A stretch of DNA of 64,000 nucleotides from Candidatus Liminaster caballi (GTDB taxonomy: Bacteria > Bacteroidota > Bacteroidia > Bacteroidales > UBA3663). The stretch is from NCBI GenBank assembly GCA_018065085.1, contig JAGHUA010000039.1, positions 1 to 64,000 on the forward strand, given 5' to 3'. A program made the position numbers and the translations under genes. This document shows, piece by piece, positions 7,581-64,000 of the stretch. The number at the start of each line of letters is the position of its first letter. The first letter of the stretch is position 1. The notes under the pieces were generated by a model. The model made no database searches. It was not told the origin of the DNA and was given only the letters and a program-made list of their open reading frames with translations.

Positions 7581-9575
7581 TTATTCGATTAGAAGTGATG
7601 TCATGATATAAGGACCGACACCCTTAGGGTCGTTGTCGCGGATGATCTCGTTGATGTAGTAGTCGAACGTGCCGCTACGGTAAGGAGTGCCGCCAAGACC
7701 TGCCACACCGCATACGCGAGTCAGCGAAATGGTGCCGTCGGCATCGTGGCGGATGAAGTGTTTGTTAAGGCCGTTGAAGGCTTCAAGGCCGTAGGTCATG
7801 AACGACTGTGGCAGCCAGCCGTTCATAGCACCCTTGATGAAGGTGTAGGCAAACATGGCTGTGCATGAAGTTTCGAGATAGTTGCCTTCGCGCTGACCCT
7901 GATCCATGACCTGATACCAAGCCTTGTATTCAGGATCCTGAATGGCGCGGATATTCTCGCAAAGAGGCTGGAGAACGGACATGATGGAGTCGCGTCCGGG
8001 ATGACCGGCAGGAAGCTGTTCGAGAACATCGACCATCGCCATGCAATACCAACCCAAGGCACGACCCCAGACGTGAGGTGCCTGACCTGTGGCTGGATCG
8101 CACCATGGCTGGGCATGAGCTTCGTCCCAGGCATGACGATAGAGGCCGTTCTGCGGGTCGTAGGTGTGGCGTGCGATGACCATAATCTGGTTTACAACAT
8201 CATTGAATGCAGCTGCCTGTGTGTCGCCCTCAAGGAACATGCGGGCATATTGGCAATAGTATGGAGAACCCATATAGATGCCGTCGAGCCACATCTGATG
8301 AGGATAGACCTTCTTGTGCCAGAAACCGCCTTCTGCAACACGCGGATGTGAGAGAAGCTGGGTGTAGAGCGAATCGAGCGCACGGCGATAACGTGGCTGA
8401 GGGTCGAGCGTATAGGCATGTGCCAGCATCTTGCCGGCGTTGATGTGGTCGAGCGAGTAGTTGGTAGTCTTGTATTTATAAATGAATCCGTCGGCATCGA
8501 TCACAGCCTTGAGATACTGGTTGACGTAGTCGTGGATCGTAGCTGCCATGTTAGGGTAGCGGTCGGCACATTGGAGCATCGACTGCAGTTCAAGGCCATG
8601 TGTATAGTTCCACTTGAGCTGAGTGTTGTAGTCGATCATCGAAGGCTCTGGCATACGTGTGATCTCACTTTTGACCATCTGGATGGACATCGGTTCGTCT
8701 TTGCCCATTGGCTTAAGGACGTATGGACGAAGGGCAGGAGCAGCTTCGCAGATGGCTGGCAGAGTGGCAAGACACATCTGGTTGGCGCCATAGATGCAGA
8801 GATGTGTGTCATCCTCGCGACCCTTCGGCGCTGCCTTGTTGGTGCCGGCAGGAATCCAGCAGAACAGACGCTTGGAACCTTCTGCACCATAGCCCTGAAT
8901 GACTTCCTTGCTGATGGCATTCATATCGACGAAGGCAATGCCGAGTTCGTTGGCAATACGGCGCGGAGCGTTCACATAGTCATCGACTGTGCCGTCTGAG
9001 CGTGTGATAATATGTGTCTCGACGAGCTGGGTGCCTTCTTTCTGACGGGTTGTGCCCTTGCCGAAGAGATCGTCTTCCTCGGCAGCGTTGGCATTCTGGA
9101 AGAAACTGCGACGGGCGATGGCATTGAACAGCACAGGAATGCCGCCCTTCTCTAACGTCTGGCGCACATAGAGGCGGAGCATGTCGTCGTATGAGTAGGT
9201 GACTTCGCTCTGCTGTTCAGAGCAACGGGCAGGAGCCGGAGTGCCTGGGCGTGTGCCTCGCTTGGCGTCCTTGATCTTCTCGTCGTTGTGTCCGAACTGG
9301 ATGAACACATAGTCGCCTGGCTGAATCTGATCATAGACGGTTTTCCATACGCCCTCGTCATAGAAACTTTTGCTTGAGCGGCCGTTGATGGCATAGTTGC
9401 GGATGGTCACATCGTCTGAGAAGAACGAACTGAGAACCTGACACCAGCCGCGTTCCTGGTTGTCGTCTTTCAGTGGCTTGTTGGCCATGGTGCTGTCGCC
9501 GATGGTGTGGACGGTGATGGCGTCGCACATGTTCACGGCCAGCAAGGTGAGGATCAGAGTGAGAATCTTTTTCAT
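7581..9575 (-). CDS. secreted SGNH esterase fused to GH105 unsaturated glycuronyl hydrolase
   Basis: A 664-residue two-domain enzyme with a signal peptide (MKKILTLILTLLAVNMCDA). Residues ~20-260 form an SGNH hydrolase of the rhamnogalacturonan acetylesterase type: block I GDSTM, the block with NGRSSKS, FGHND and the C-terminal DDTHLCIYG carrying the Asp-His pair. Residues ~300-664 form a GH105 (YesR-like) alpha/alpha barrel with MWLDGIYMGSPYYCQYA, WGRALGWYCMAMVDVLEQLP and LGGTPYRSGTFDYYI. GH105 enzymes hydrate and release the unsaturated uronic acid left by lyases on rhamnogalacturonan oligosaccharides. The fusion would deacetylate and then trim the same pectic fragments in the periplasm. Confidence 0.88.
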   Translation of the reverse strand: MKKILTLILTLLAVNMCDAITVHTIGDSTMANKPLKDDNQERGWCQVLSSFFSDDVTIRNYAINGRSSKSFYDEGVWKTVYDQIQPGDYVFIQFGHNDEKIKDAKRGTRPGTPAPARCSEQQSEVTYSYDDMLRLYVRQTLEKGGIPVLFNAIARRSFFQNANAAEEDDLFGKGTTRQKEGTQLVETHIITRSDGTVDDYVNAPRRIANELGIAFVDMNAISKEVIQGYGAEGSKRLFCWIPAGTNKAAPKGREDDTHLCIYGANQMCLATLPAICEAAPALRPYVLKPMGKDEPMSIQMVKSEITRMPEPSMIDYNTQLKWNYTHGLELQSMLQCADRYPNMAATIHDYVNQYLKAVIDADGFIYKYKTTNYSLDHINAGKMLAHAYTLDPQPRYRRALDSLYTQLLSHPRVAEGGFWHKKVYPHQMWLDGIYMGSPYYCQYARMFLEGDTQAAAFNDVVNQIMVIARHTYDPQNGLYRHAWDEAHAQPWCDPATGQAPHVWGRALGWYCMAMVDVLEQLPAGHPGRDSIMSVLQPLCENIRAIQDPEYKAWYQVMDQGQREGNYLETSCTAMFAYTFIKGAMNGWLPQSFMTYGLEAFNGLNKHFIRHDADGTISLTRVCGVAGLGGTPYRSGTFDYYINEIIRDNDPKGVGPYIMTSLLIE

Positions 9576-9626
9576 GAATATGGATGGTTAGTGTTATTAT
9601 ATATATTAATAAGGTATAGAGAGGTG

Positions 9627-10208
9627 TCAGTTGATGAGCAGGGCGATGTTGCCAACGAAGAGCTTGACCGCAATGGCAAGAAGAATGATGCCGAAGAATT
9701 TGCGAAGCACGTAGATGCCACCCTGTCCGAGCACTCGCTCAAGGAAATGCACGTTCTTCAGGACGAGATAGACAATGATGATATTGGCAATAAGGCCGAG
9801 CAGGATGTTCGTGACGTGGTATTCGGCGCGAAGGGAGAGCAGGGCAGTGAATGTGCCAGCGCCGGCAATAAGCGGGAACACGACAGGCACGAGTGTGGTG
9901 GAGCCTTTAGGTCCGTCGCTGTATCGGAAGATCTCGATGCCGAGAGTCATCTCGATGCCCAACAGGAAGATGATGAAACCACCTGCCACGGCAAACGAAT
10001 GGATATCAACAGAGAAGAGTTCGAGAATAAGATTGCCGGCAAAGAGAAACAACACAAGGATGGCCAGCGAATAGATGGCAGCTTTGGCTGCGTTGACAGG
10101 TCCTGATTTCTGTTGCAGGTCAATGACCACAGGTGTGAGTCCTGTGACATCGATCATCGCAAAGATAACAATGAAAGCGGAGATAAATTCTTTTATGTCG
10201 AAGCTCAT
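9627..10208 (-). CDS. MarC family inner membrane protein
   Basis: A 193-residue protein made of about six hydrophobic helices, starting with FISAFIVIFAMIDVTGLTPVV and ending with FFGIILLAIAVKLFVGNIALLI. The pattern, including GIEMTLGIEIFR and VPVVFPLIAGAGTFT, matches the MarC/UPF0056 family. Function is unresolved in this family; an early link to multiple antibiotic resistance was not upheld. It stands 51 bp upstream of the SGNH-GH105 gene and about 100 bp downstream of the S41 peptidase gene on the same strand, so it could belong to either transcript. Confidence 0.85.
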   Translation of the reverse strand: MSFDIKEFISAFIVIFAMIDVTGLTPVVIDLQQKSGPVNAAKAAIYSLAILVLFLFAGNLILELFSVDIHSFAVAGGFIIFLLGIEMTLGIEIFRYSDGPKGSTTLVPVVFPLIAGAGTFTALLSLRAEYHVTNILLGLIANIIIVYLVLKNVHFLERVLGQGGIYVLRKFFGIILLAIAVKLFVGNIALLIN

Positions 10209-10315
10209 GGGTTATAGGTTGAAAGTTATTAGCAAAATCAGTTAATTGTTATTTGTTAATTGTTTTTTTTTGTGCCAGTTCTTTTGCCAGTTATTGGCGC
10301 AAGTTTTTTTGCCTG

Positions 10316-11902
10316 TTATCGGTTGTTGTTCAATATTTCACTGTATCGCTTCTCGTCGAGAATGAGGTCGAGCGCTGCCTTGAACGTGTTCTGGCGTGTG
10401 TTCATGATGCGCGAGTACGAACCGTTCTCATACATGTCGTTGGCGATGTAGGCCTTGAACTGGAGTTTGATGAGGTCGATGTCGCTGGCTGTGAATGTGG
10501 TGTCGCTTATCGTGATGCTGTCTTTGCGAGCAGCGTCGAAGAGATCGTTCATGATATGGTCAGAGACGGTGAAGCTTCTGTTGAACGATTCAAAGTCCTT
10601 GTACTTGCGATGGAGCGACTTCTGGTTGTTGCGGAAATAATCGAGCACGAAGCGGTTGAGTGTGCCGCGTGCAATAAGTGAGCGATGTGTCTTGGAAATC
10701 TTTGTGGTGTCGAGCGGCACGAAGACATCCGGCATGATGCCGCCACCGCCATAAACCTTGCGACCGCCATTGGTATGGTAGATCAGCGAGTCGGCAAAGT
10801 GAATTGAATCGGCAGAGAAAAATTCACCGCGGTCATAGCGCTGGCGAATGTCCTTGGCATAGTCATCCTTCTCGCCTTTGACGTATGGCTTCTGAATGCA
10901 GCGCCCGCACGGAGTATAATATTGAGCGATGGTCAGACGGATCATTGCTCCGCTTGGCAGTTCCACAGGCATCTGTACCAAACCCTTGCCAAACGAACGG
11001 CGACCGACGACCACGGCTCTGTCCCAATCCTGCATCGCGCCTGTAAAGATTTCGCTTGCCGATGCGCTTTCCTCGTCGATGAGCACCACGAGGCGGCCGC
11101 CGAACGGACGATGTTTCTTGGCAAAGCTGTTCTTTCGCGGATCTTTCAAACCTTCGGTATAGACGACGAGATTGTTGTGGTCAAGGAATTCGGATGCCAT
11201 ATCTACGGCAATCTGAAGATAACCGCCGCCGTTGCCCTGAAGGTCGATGATAAGATCGGTCATGCCCTGAGCCTTAAGTTCGTCCATGGCTTTGATGAGC
11301 TCGTCGGCTGTGGTCGTGGCAAATCGGGAAATCTTGATGTAACCGACCGACTTATCGACCATGTATGAGGCATCGATGCTATAGACGGGAATCTTGTCGC
11401 GTGTGATGTGGAAGTCGATCATCTCGTTGTCGCGCATCACAGACACCTTTACCTTTGTGCCTTTAGCGCCGCGCAGACGTTTCTGAATGTCCTTGGTGGT
11501 CATCTTCACACCAGCTATGGTCGTGTCATTGACCAGGATGATGCGGTCGCCGGCTTGAATGCCTACTTTCTCGGAAGGACCTCCGATGACGGTGCTGATA
11601 ACCAGCAGCGTGTCACGTTCCATCTGATATCTGACGCCGATGCCTTCGAAGTTGCCGCCAAGGTCTTCGTTCATGGCTTTGACCTCATCTGCTGTGAGAT
11701 AGGTGGTGTGGGGATCGAGTTCCTTGAGCATACTGCGGATGGCTGTCTCGGCCAGATGATCGACGTTGAGAGTGTCGAAATAACGGTAGTCGGCCATCAG
11801 CAGGGTGTACTGAAGGTCGCTAACCGCAGTGCGTACGTCAGCCATCATCCTGAAGACAGGCAGCATGGCAAGAATCAGTATGGGGAGAATGCGCTTGATC
11901 AT
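10316..11902 (-). CDS. S41 family C-terminal processing peptidase
   Basis: A 528-residue periplasmic serine protease with an N-terminal signal or anchor segment (MIKRILPILILAMLPVFRMM). An N-terminal helical domain (DPHTTYLTADEVKAMNEDLGG) is followed by a PDZ domain (about 95-175, with GPSEKVGIQAGDRI) and the S41 catalytic domain. The nucleophile Ser is in DEESASASEIFTG and the general-base Lys in RRSFGKGLVQ. Such enzymes trim C-termini of envelope proteins or degrade faulty ones. The ATG lies 3 bp after the coaD stop, so it is the last gene of the argS-parE-coaD operon. Confidence 0.92.
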   Translation of the reverse strand: MIKRILPILILAMLPVFRMMADVRTAVSDLQYTLLMADYRYFDTLNVDHLAETAIRSMLKELDPHTTYLTADEVKAMNEDLGGNFEGIGVRYQMERDTLLVISTVIGGPSEKVGIQAGDRIILVNDTTIAGVKMTTKDIQKRLRGAKGTKVKVSVMRDNEMIDFHITRDKIPVYSIDASYMVDKSVGYIKISRFATTTADELIKAMDELKAQGMTDLIIDLQGNGGGYLQIAVDMASEFLDHNNLVVYTEGLKDPRKNSFAKKHRPFGGRLVVLIDEESASASEIFTGAMQDWDRAVVVGRRSFGKGLVQMPVELPSGAMIRLTIAQYYTPCGRCIQKPYVKGEKDDYAKDIRQRYDRGEFFSADSIHFADSLIYHTNGGRKVYGGGGIMPDVFVPLDTTKISKTHRSLIARGTLNRFVLDYFRNNQKSLHRKYKDFESFNRSFTVSDHIMNDLFDAARKDSITISDTTFTASDIDLIKLQFKAYIANDMYENGSYSRIMNTRQNTFKAALDLILDEKRYSEILNNNR

Positions 11903-61649: not shown

Positions 61650-61657
61650 TATATTTG
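61650..61657 (+). promoter_or_regulatory. -7 promoter element of the GHKL/STAS gene pair
   Basis: TATATTTG followed by CAGCG on the plus strand, 57 bp upstream of the ATG at 61715. It marks the start of a new AT-rich transcription unit. Confidence 0.6.
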
Positions 61658-61714: not shown

Positions 61715-62506
61715 ATGATATATAAGATTCCACATATTCAGAATGAAAGAGAGCGCATCGTTGGAGAAATGATGGCACTTATTGAATTGGTCTCTAAAAT
61801 ACACATAGGCGAAGAAATCATATTTACTAATGATTCTGCACAAAACGGTTTGCTTATATCGCTGATTAGAATTCTAAAAGAATCTTCATATAGCAATATA
61901 GTTTGCGACGATTTATCAAAGTTGTCAGATTTCTATATTGTAGATTTGAAGTCAGAATCATCAAATATCACAGTCAGCAATATTGTAAAATCATTAATCG
62001 ACACAAACGGAGTACCTAAGAATCTCAACATACCTCTTGGATATCTGTTTGACGAACTGGTTTGCAATATGCAACAGCATTCTGGAGTTCAAGAAGGGCA
62101 TATTTATGCATCTGTCAACAAAGGAAGAAATACTATTGACCTTTGTTTTGCAGACTATGGCATCACTATATATGGCAGTTATATTAACACAGGAAAATTT
62201 CTTGATTTCATAGGAACGAGTCATGCCGAAGCAGTCAATATTGCCAAAGAAGGTTATTCTACAAAAAACCGTCCTGATGCAGAAAATCGTGGATATGGAA
62301 TTTCTTCTAATACTAAAATGGTTGTTGATGGATTAAATGGGTCGTTTGCTATTATTTCGGGTACAGGTTTGTTCCATTATCATAAATCTACAGGTCAGAA
62401 TGTGATTGAAATGCCAGATGGATTTGAATGGCAAGGAACAACTATCATTGTTAGGATTCCACTCGAAATACCATCAACATTTAATTTTTATGATTATATA
62501 TCTTAA
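61715..62506 (+). CDS. GHKL-type ATP-binding protein
   Basis: A 263-residue cytoplasmic protein. The C-terminal half carries HATPase_c-like boxes: the N-box in LFDELVCNMQQHSG, the D-containing box in LCFADYGITIYG and the G-rich box in NRGYGISSNTKMVVDGLNG. Box order and an N-box resembling NELVxNxxxHS suggest an anti-sigma/histidine-kinase fold ATPase. The N-terminal ~130 residues show no known domain. The gene lies 6 bp before a STAS-like gene, as in partner-switching modules. Codon use is markedly AT-rich compared with rarA, pointing to recent acquisition. An upstream in-frame start (MQRENTVF) crosses the promoter. Confidence 0.72.
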   Translation: MIYKIPHIQNERERIVGEMMALIELVSKIHIGEEIIFTNDSAQNGLLISLIRILKESSYSNIVCDDLSKLSDFYIVDLKSESSNITVSNIVKSLIDTNGVPKNLNIPLGYLFDELVCNMQQHSGVQEGHIYASVNKGRNTIDLCFADYGITIYGSYINTGKFLDFIGTSHAEAVNIAKEGYSTKNRPDAENRGYGISSNTKMVVDGLNGSFAIISGTGLFHYHKSTGQNVIEMPDGFEWQGTTIIVRIPLEIPSTFNFYDYIS

Positions 62507-62512
62507 CACAAA

Positions 62513-62848
62513 ATGAAACGCATATTAAAAATGTCCAATGTCTGTGGTACCGAGTTACGCACGCGTCTGATGATGGAGCAATTCGTACAAACACTAAATA
62601 GTGAAGACGAATATTTGCTGGACATGCAGGATGTGACGCTCATATCTCGTTCCGCTGCAGACGAACTGTACAATATAACATTGGATAATCCCAAGATTAA
62701 GATTATTCATCTGTCACCATTCGTACAGAAGATGCTTGATGCGGTAATCCTCGGTAGGTTCCAGCCTCGCAATCTGCGTCCAGATGCAACTCCTGTGATT
62801 CATTGTGAGGATTATAACAGCCTTCAAGAAGCTTTGATGGCTTTGTAA
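62513..62848 (+). CDS. STAS-like domain protein (DUF4325)
   Basis: A 111-residue protein. The core (GTELRTRLMMEQF, YLLDMQDVTLISRSAADELYNI) fits the STAS-like DUF4325 family, which resembles anti-sigma-factor antagonists but lacks a conserved phosphorylated Ser in a standard position. It starts 6 bp after the GHKL ATPase gene, and the two are almost certainly co-expressed. The likely role is as a switch subunit binding the ATPase; this is inference from the classic SpoIIAA/SpoIIAB pairing. Confidence 0.72.
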   Translation: MKRILKMSNVCGTELRTRLMMEQFVQTLNSEDEYLLDMQDVTLISRSAADELYNITLDNPKIKIIHLSPFVQKMLDAVILGRFQPRNLRPDATPVIHCEDYNSLQEALMAL

Positions 62849-62991
62849 TATAAGCTGGGTGTATTTATCGATGCAACGAGATTCTATGTAATCAACAATA
62901 AACAAAACTCTAAATCACTAAAATAACATTATAAACAAAACAAACGAAATAACATATTAACAACAACATAAATAGCATCTAGCTATCATTG
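62849..62991. other. A-rich spacer before the structured RNA
   Basis: No open frame of note. It consists of A/C-rich sequence with several AACAAAAC-type words. TATCATTG at 62984-62991 is one mismatch from the -7 consensus but sits too close to the first stem to be a convincing promoter. Confidence 0.4.
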
Positions 62992-63228
62992 TGGTCGTCA
63001 AGAATTGAAGCCTAGGAAACTTACCTTTCTCTGATACATACCACATCAATGATGGTTGGCTTCAGCGTATAGAGGTTCTATGCGTAGGAATTGAGCCAAT
63101 CCGAAATATATTGATAGAAGATGCTTACACCTTTTGGGTGTGGGCATTATTCTTATATTTCGGAGAGGTCAGAGAACATTCCTAGGCTTCAACCTCAGAC
63201 GACCATAAGAAGAAGCTCACGCTCTTTT
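62992..63228 (+). ncRNA. candidate branched structured RNA
   Basis: A non-coding block with a long closed structure. Three consecutive perfect stems nest: 62992-62999 with 63198-63205 (8 bp), 63005-63018 with 63179-63192 (14 bp) and 63027-63034 with 63169-63176 (8 bp). Inside are two hairpins: 63056-63061/63094-63099 carrying 63066-63073/63077-63084, and 63101-63110/63154-63163 (10 bp) capped by an 11-bp stem around 63121-63147. Three pairs are G-U only if the plus strand is transcribed. A hairpin with a T-run (63207-63228) follows, like a terminator. tmRNA, SRP and RNase P signatures are absent. A MITE is the main alternative reading. Confidence 0.6.
63207..63228 (+). terminator. possible terminator of the structured RNA
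   Basis: AAGAAGAAGC and GCTCTTTTT can pair across the loop TCAC with G-U pairs and one mismatch, ending in five T residues. This is a moderate hairpin directly 3' of the structured block and 80 bp before the helicase gene. Confidence 0.4.
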
Positions 63229-63307
63229 TATGTGTCGTTCATTCCAGCATAATACCACGAGCCACACAGATTGATTAGATAGTGCGCGATGCATCATCTA
63301 ATCGACA

Positions 63308-64000
63308 ATGATTACCAGATATCATGCCAAATATTATGCTTACTTGCTTTCCCAACAATCGGTGGGAGAGCAGTTGTCGTCCCTCTCTCAGTCATTGTTG
63401 AATGCTGCAGTTGACATCAATCCACATCAGATTGATGCAGCTTTGTTTGCTTTCAAATCGCCTTTGTCAAAAGGTATAGTACTGGCGGATGAAGTCGGTT
63501 TGGGCAAGACAATAGAAGCAGGATTGGTTTTATGCCAATATTGGTCAACCGGCAAACGCAATATAATTGTGGTATGTCCTGCATCACTTAGAAAGCAGTG
63601 GGAATCAGAACTGCTCGATAAATTTGGATTGAAGAGCGAGATCCTCGATACCAAAAACTACAATGCTCTGCAGAAAGAAGGAAAGAATCCATTTGATCCA
63701 TCACGAATCGTCATCTGTAGCTATACATTCTGTGCCAAACATAAAGGTGAGATTCTGACCCATGGGTTCCAGCTGGCAGTGATTGATGAGGCTCACAAGA
63801 TGCGAAATGTCTATCGCAGCAGTGCCAGAACAATGGCAGAAGTGCGCGATGCTCTTTATGGCTCCAAGAAATTGTTGCTCACAGCAACCCCGTTCCAGAA
63901 TTCATTGCTCGAACTCTATGGACTCACTTCTGTTATTGATGACAAGATTTTCGGAAGCGAGAAATCCTTTCGTGCAGAATATGGCAACGGAACGAACTTA
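63308..64000 (+). CDS. SNF2-type DEAD/DEAH helicase, N-terminal part (runs off the window)
   Basis: The first 231 codons of a helicase with no stop before the window ends. The ATG at 63308 follows an in-frame stop at 63299-63301. Walker A is LADEVGLGKTIEAGL, motif Ia contains VVCPASLRKQW, motif II is VIDEAHKM and motif III is LLLTATPFQNS. This order and spacing match RapA/HepA-like SNF2 translocases, which in accessory regions are often parts of DISARM-like or other anti-phage systems. The domains after the first RecA lobe are unknown. Upstream lies the structured RNA, and before it the GHKL/STAS pair on the same strand. Confidence 0.8.
   Translation, partial: MITRYHAKYYAYLLSQQSVGEQLSSLSQSLLNAAVDINPHQIDAALFAFKSPLSKGIVLADEVGLGKTIEAGLVLCQYWSTGKRNIIVVCPASLRKQWESELLDKFGLKSEILDTKNYNALQKEGKNPFDPSRIVICSYTFCAKHKGEILTHGFQLAVIDEAHKMRNVYRSSARTMAEVRDALYGSKKLLLTATPFQNSLLELYGLTSVIDDKIFGSEKSFRAEYGNGTNL

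Follow-up and report, generated by a model that had tools for sequence, protein, structure and literature searches.

The locus

At the end of the window, which is the whole 64,000-nucleotide stretch of DNA analysed, lies an operon with the order HATPase, STAS-like, structured RNA, DrmD-like SNF2 helicase, type III Mod and type III Res. Its promoter and genes within the window are as follows.

61650..61657, plus strand: predicted promoter for the entire operon, TAnnTTTG (-7 type), TATATTTG, from a motif scan
61715..62506, plus strand: HATPase_c-like gene, first in the operon (PF02518, E 0.004, below cut-off)
62513..62848, plus strand: STAS-like gene, 111 aa, without Pfam match
63308..64000, plus strand: DrmD-like SNF2 helicase gene, 947 aa, ATG at 63308, extending past the window

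The motif scan used the Bacteroidetes -7 promoter consensus, TAnnTTTG (PMC7366714). A TTG at 61655 that could start the HATPase_c-like gene falls inside the promoter, and the first ATG is at 61715. Downstream of the helicase are genes for a type III Mod protein (1000 aa) and then a type III Res protein (1085 aa). Because the predicted operon promoter TATATTTG at 61650 precedes the HATPase gene, we regard the RNA as intercistronic, within a DNA-defence operon. The HATPase-like and STAS-like pair (61715-62848) that heads this operon was not found in orthologous loci and may be a regulatory module; an obligatory link between the RNA and these two genes was rejected, since neither turned up in the orthologous loci.

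Fold and covariation of the RNA

The RNA lies where the original prediction placed it, between the STAS-like gene, which ends at 62848, and the helicase gene, which starts at 63308. Its elements, and the hairpin that follows it, are these.

62974..62991, plus strand: 5' element, AGCATC (62974-62979) and TATCATTG (62984-62991), with partners at 63120-63125 and 63047-63054
62992..62999, plus strand: P1 5' strand, 8 bp with 63198-63205, covarying
63005..63018, plus strand: P2 5' strand, 14 bp with 63179-63192, covarying
63027..63035, plus strand: P3 5' strand, about 8-9 bp with 63168-63176, covarying
63056..63099, plus strand: P4 hairpin, TTGGCT..AGCCAA, loop variable
63100..63164, plus strand: P5/P6 hairpin, 10- and 11-bp stems in series
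63136..63145, plus strand: P6 right arm, GGGTGTGGGC, also a partner of the 3' tail
63165..63196, plus strand: crossing helix GAGGT (63165-63169) / ACCTC (63192-63196), covarying
63215..63229, plus strand: 3' tail GCTCACGCTC (63215-63224) and U-run TTTTT (63225-63229)
63273..63303, plus strand: second hairpin, GATTAGAT..ATCTAATC, 4 nt ahead of the helicase start codon

The consensus fold is multibranched, with six helices. Nested stems and two further hairpins, one of them with 10- and 11-bp stems in series, had been described from the sequence of the window, and all are present. The extent first assigned to the RNA was too short: the core stems lie at the positions given, but the conserved element starts at about 62974 and measures about 250 nt, and the second hairpin at 63273-63303 follows it. 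The 3' end had been described as a hairpin with a T-run; the T-run stands, but the local hairpin (AAGAAG../CTTTTT) is weak, and the inner arm at 63136-63145 is the better-supported partner of the tail. The assignment of the RNA to the plus strand was borne out by the minimum free energy, which is -106 kcal/mol for the plus strand compared with -62.1 +/- 4.9 kcal/mol for dinucleotide shuffles (z -9.0), and -88.7 kcal/mol (z -7.2) for the minus strand.

Covariation among homologues, the check on which the original prediction was to stand or fall, was found in two sets of relatives and is strong. In a MAFFT alignment of eight sequences that was not fitted to the structure, the nested stems and two hairpins are 95.5% paired, 12 of the 48 pairs show changes on both sides, and the covariation score is 0.272, against 0.03-0.07 when the partners are slid. 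Fourteen full-length sequences aligned to a covariance model, an alignment that leans towards the structure, give 96.5% pairing, both-side changes in 24/48 pairs and a score of 0.405, compared with 0.03-0.09 for slid partners. This is a genuine conserved structured RNA on the plus strand, and in our judgement the covariation settles that its fold is under selection.

Relatives and distribution

Relatives of the window RNA are referred to here as class A. A BLAST search revealed a second copy in the window's own genome (G000:C40, about 73% identical) and copies in G032. In four other genomes (L039-L042) the RNA precedes the orthologous SNF2 helicase, and other copies are found ahead of a type III Mod/Res pair (G547) and of an operon encoding a methylase and a GIY-YIG/helicase protein (G568). 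A covariance model built from eight relatives found the diverged ones, for which some downstream gene names were read from the sequence rather than taken from library matches. Among them is a third copy in the window's genome, found only by the model, which precedes a D12 methylase / HNH / N6_N4 methylase operon. Two diverged relatives precede EcoRI-type methylases, one of them followed by a GmrSD_N/HNH gene, and another lies ahead of a ZorA/ZorB-like pair (MotA_ExbB/OmpA) whose third gene is HNH-like; others precede an acyltransferase gene, a 239-aa gene with an LRR-type gene, and the same operon as in G568. The model matches seven of 247 Bacteroidales genomes sampled across the order, including the three copies in the window's genome, and 2/125 Parabacteroides-family genomes, while BLAST matches occur in three of 399 genomes of the Prevotella family. 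No relative was found among phages and plasmids by blastn, and the single match of a pattern search in viral contigs was a zinc-ribbon coding sequence and was discarded as false.

Several copies are altered. The P4 loop is enlarged by about 70 nt or more in L131 (G568:C4, 102563-102892) and L187 (G879), and in G568 a repeat of about 8 bp (GTTGGCTT) stands on either side of the extra stretch, which resembles a small insertion element inside the RNA. Two truncated copies, L037 (G032:C33) and L127 (G404:C104), show clear similarity only in the 5' 35-90 nt and are fused to 3' fragments of coding sequences, the L037 piece being DUF1016-like by eye. At L036 the class A RNA has a class-B-like RNA fragment upstream (8760-8930) and decayed helicase/methylase-like fragments downstream (9530-10430), and the region looks like the remnant of a defence island.

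Placement before genes

Full-length copies lie on the same strand as the downstream gene and at near-fixed spacing from it. Close members have about 76-99 nt between the end of the U-run and the start codon, whatever gene follows, and divergent members about 41-84 nt. A second hairpin stands shortly ahead of the ATG in every class A spacer that was folded or read; these hairpins are unrelated in sequence but self-complementary, and the left arm often contains GATAG. A scan for promoters of the TAnnTTTG type, the only type tested, found none between RNA and gene in the members scanned. The motif does occur upstream of the RNA in five close members (L036, L039-L042) and several diverged ones, and where it is missing the RNA mostly follows a co-oriented gene at short distance, as in the window, L035, L131 and L132. 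Judged by sequence, the RNA thus lies in an untranslated leader or in intercistronic mRNA, with transcription entering from upstream. The near-fixed spacing to the start codon, the lack of a Bacteroidetes-type promoter in the spacer and the location within operons favour a cis-acting leader over a non-coding RNA gene that stands alone.

Competing pairings

Four further helices that cross or compete with the main fold are also kept. These helices join the AGCATC of the 5' element to the left arm of P6, TATCATTG to 63047-63054, GAGGT to ACCTC, and the tail GCTCACGCTC to the P6 right arm. Counted with P4, which both folds contain, they are 98.6% paired, with a covariation score of 0.193 against 0.02-0.08 for slid partners. 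TATCATTG is invariant among the eight sequences and so cannot contribute covariation there. Concerted changes of the 5' element and its inner partner are seen in diverged members (GCATTGACTATT/AGTAGTTAATGT in L181; also L183, L184, L185 and L186); a permutation test of this pairing was not significant. For the tail and inner arm, matches within an RNA far exceed those between RNAs across divergent members (0/20000 permutations). A reading of TTGAC-N19-TATCATTG as a promoter was dropped because conservation does not extend to its -33 part and because the inner-strand partner of TATCATTG varies in step with it in diverged relatives.

In seven of eight sequences the closed state is favoured over the alternative by about 12-34 kcal/mol; L036, the exception, lies ahead of decayed genes and has broken pairs in P1 and P2. 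Given this difference in stability, there may be no second state, the alternative pairings instead being pseudoknots or kinetic intermediates.

Exchange of leaders ahead of one operon

Although the SNF2-Mod operons of the Bacteroidales loci fetched are orthologous, they carry different large structured RNAs at the same upstream place. Class A occurs in L039-L042, a second class, B, in at least ten loci, and other types in L050, L051, L055 and L062. For most helicase relatives from Proteobacteria and other phyla (L067-L117) the upstream region holds no strongly folded RNA; the RNA is thus not obligatory for this helicase family. A further leader type (CCGTCTCTTAGGAAGAGGCG..CTCGACAAAGACC..GGTCGCCTGTCGAGACAC) stands ahead of the same helicase operon in L051, L056 and L059, and the region upstream of the helicase in L062 (745-1175) is strongly folded (z -10.9) into yet another type with two long hairpins.

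Class B (L044-L049, L052, L054, L058, L060 and L136-L165; for example L048:4618-4934) has a covarying 270-nt fold that is absent from Rfam, and it was found in 116 of 301 Prevotella-family genomes, where multiple copies are common. It lies mostly in sense orientation ahead of Hsp70-like, kinase, vWA, dynamin-like, methylase, LRR and lipoprotein genes. In 38 of 40 loci TAnnTTTG is found 65-101 nt upstream of the anchor, where about 0.4 would be expected per 25 nt. The class B tail can pair either with a local GUGGA, which is terminator-like, or with the inner arm, and most spacers, read by eye, contain a GGAGCC-like stretch complementary to the tail. The two classes share a size of about 270 nt, a large closing rod, an inner hairpin, a tail that can pair with an inner arm, a U-run, an upstream promoter and diverse downstream genes, but they differ in sequence and helix lengths, and class B is far more frequent. 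They may form one superfamily, because L055 scores weakly with the class A model (E 2.4e-4) and L185/L186 (G093) show features of both and look intermediate.

Proposed function

We consider it somewhat probable that the RNA is a cis-acting conformational leader, a terminator/antiterminator or translation switch, of its accessory operon. The RNA occupies an untranslated stretch of the operon mRNA, immediately ahead of the SNF2 helicase and type III restriction-modification genes. P1-P6 would be formed in the closed state. In the alternative, the tail ahead of the U-run would pair with the right arm of P6 to give a 10-bp stem with the U residues behind it, in effect an intrinsic terminator whose loop is large. 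The 5' element would then pair with the inner strands. Whichever state prevails would set transcription into, or translation of, the downstream genes, and the second hairpin beside the start codon would presumably be part of the output. Both the cis action and the switch between the closed fold and a tail-paired, terminator-like fold are what we infer from these features; the loop of the proposed terminator is atypically large, which is a point against a switch.

The same RNA might instead act in trans, transcription usually stopping at the U-run to give a stable component of the neighbouring system, for instance a guide, a scaffold or an antitoxin-like inhibitor of the helicase or nuclease. 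Such a role would suit a very stable, discrete fold with a U-run end and neighbours that are mostly restriction-modification or defence-like genes, and it has a precedent in the abiF-motif RNA antitoxin beside an Abi gene (PMC12373285). However, the downstream proteins (SNF2/type III restriction-modification, type II restriction-modification, EcoRI-type methylase, SPFH and acyltransferase) are unrelated to one another and so offer no common protein partner, the start-codon spacing is kept and no promoter of the TAnnTTTG type was seen in the spacer; we therefore think a trans-acting RNA unlikely. The cis-acting leader could also work by processive antitermination or mRNA stability rather than as a ligand-controlled switch, in the manner of the EAR element. 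The position of a large RNA between genes of a long operon would fit this, as would alternative pairings that were just pseudoknots of one fold, but the RNA also precedes apparently short transcription units (L182) and the alternative pairings conserve a tail abutting the U-run, and this mode of action seems improbable to us.

That the element is a mobile repeat (MITE), a risk foreseen in the original prediction, or an invertible promoter is very improbable. Its long inverted repeats and few copies per genome would be compatible with either, yet the copies are diverged, those of full length read in the sense direction and keep a near-fixed spacing, the interior is structured and covarying, and no target-site duplications of the element were recognised. 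The three copies in the window's genome are likewise diverged and give no evidence of a MITE.

Significance

To our knowledge, few structured RNA leaders that regulate restriction-modification or other immune operons have been described, and RNA-level regulation in Bacteroidales is poorly understood. We tentatively suggest that the conformational leaders belong to an undescribed superfamily of large, interchangeable RNAs that might act as a shared on-off control for the expression of anti-phage operons, and of other accessory operons, in Bacteroidales, such that one RNA-sensed signal, possibly infection or translation stress, would turn on unrelated immune systems. A leader family that recurs ahead of unrelated immune systems, and is swapped at the same operon, would point to shared regulatory logic, and it supplies concrete sequences for reporter work.

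Relation to known RNA classes

The window RNA had been said to match no recognised class such as tmRNA, SRP RNA or RNase P, and a search of Rfam 15 (4227 families) agrees, giving no match anywhere in the window at the gathering cut-off and none convincing for this RNA at permissive thresholds. No description of the RNA was found in the literature; an unnamed entry is possible among the thousands of microbiome RNA candidates of Fremin and Bhatt (2021; PMC8040213), whose tables lay outside the search. The earlier doubt about 6S RNA was justified, as 6S RNA requires a single long hairpin with a central bubble, the consensus here is multibranched with six helices, and Rfam gives no 6S match. A type III toxin-antitoxin RNA was rejected on the lack of tandem repeats in the aligned element and on the SNF2/restriction-modification neighbours, and a retron or DRT non-coding RNA on the lack of an adjacent reverse transcriptase in an operon of HATPase, STAS-like, SNF2, Mod and Res genes.

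The EAR element is a processive antitermination leader of exopolysaccharide operons, and the window RNA is like it in being a structured RNA inside or before long operons, but unlike it in having no Rfam match, in possessing its own U-run end and in being Bacteroidales-specific as far as searched. Like the abiF RNA and the type III toxin-antitoxin RNAs (ToxI), it is structured and directly precedes a defence gene (PMC12373285; PMC8040213), but it lacks tandem repeats, has no ToxN or AbiF downstream and precedes proteins that are mutually unrelated. Compared with riboswitches and attenuators such as the T-box and SAM leaders it is larger, multibranched, without an Rfam match and followed by functionally diverse genes, but like them it is found 5' of a start codon in an mRNA and has competing, covarying pairings, one of which abuts a U-run.
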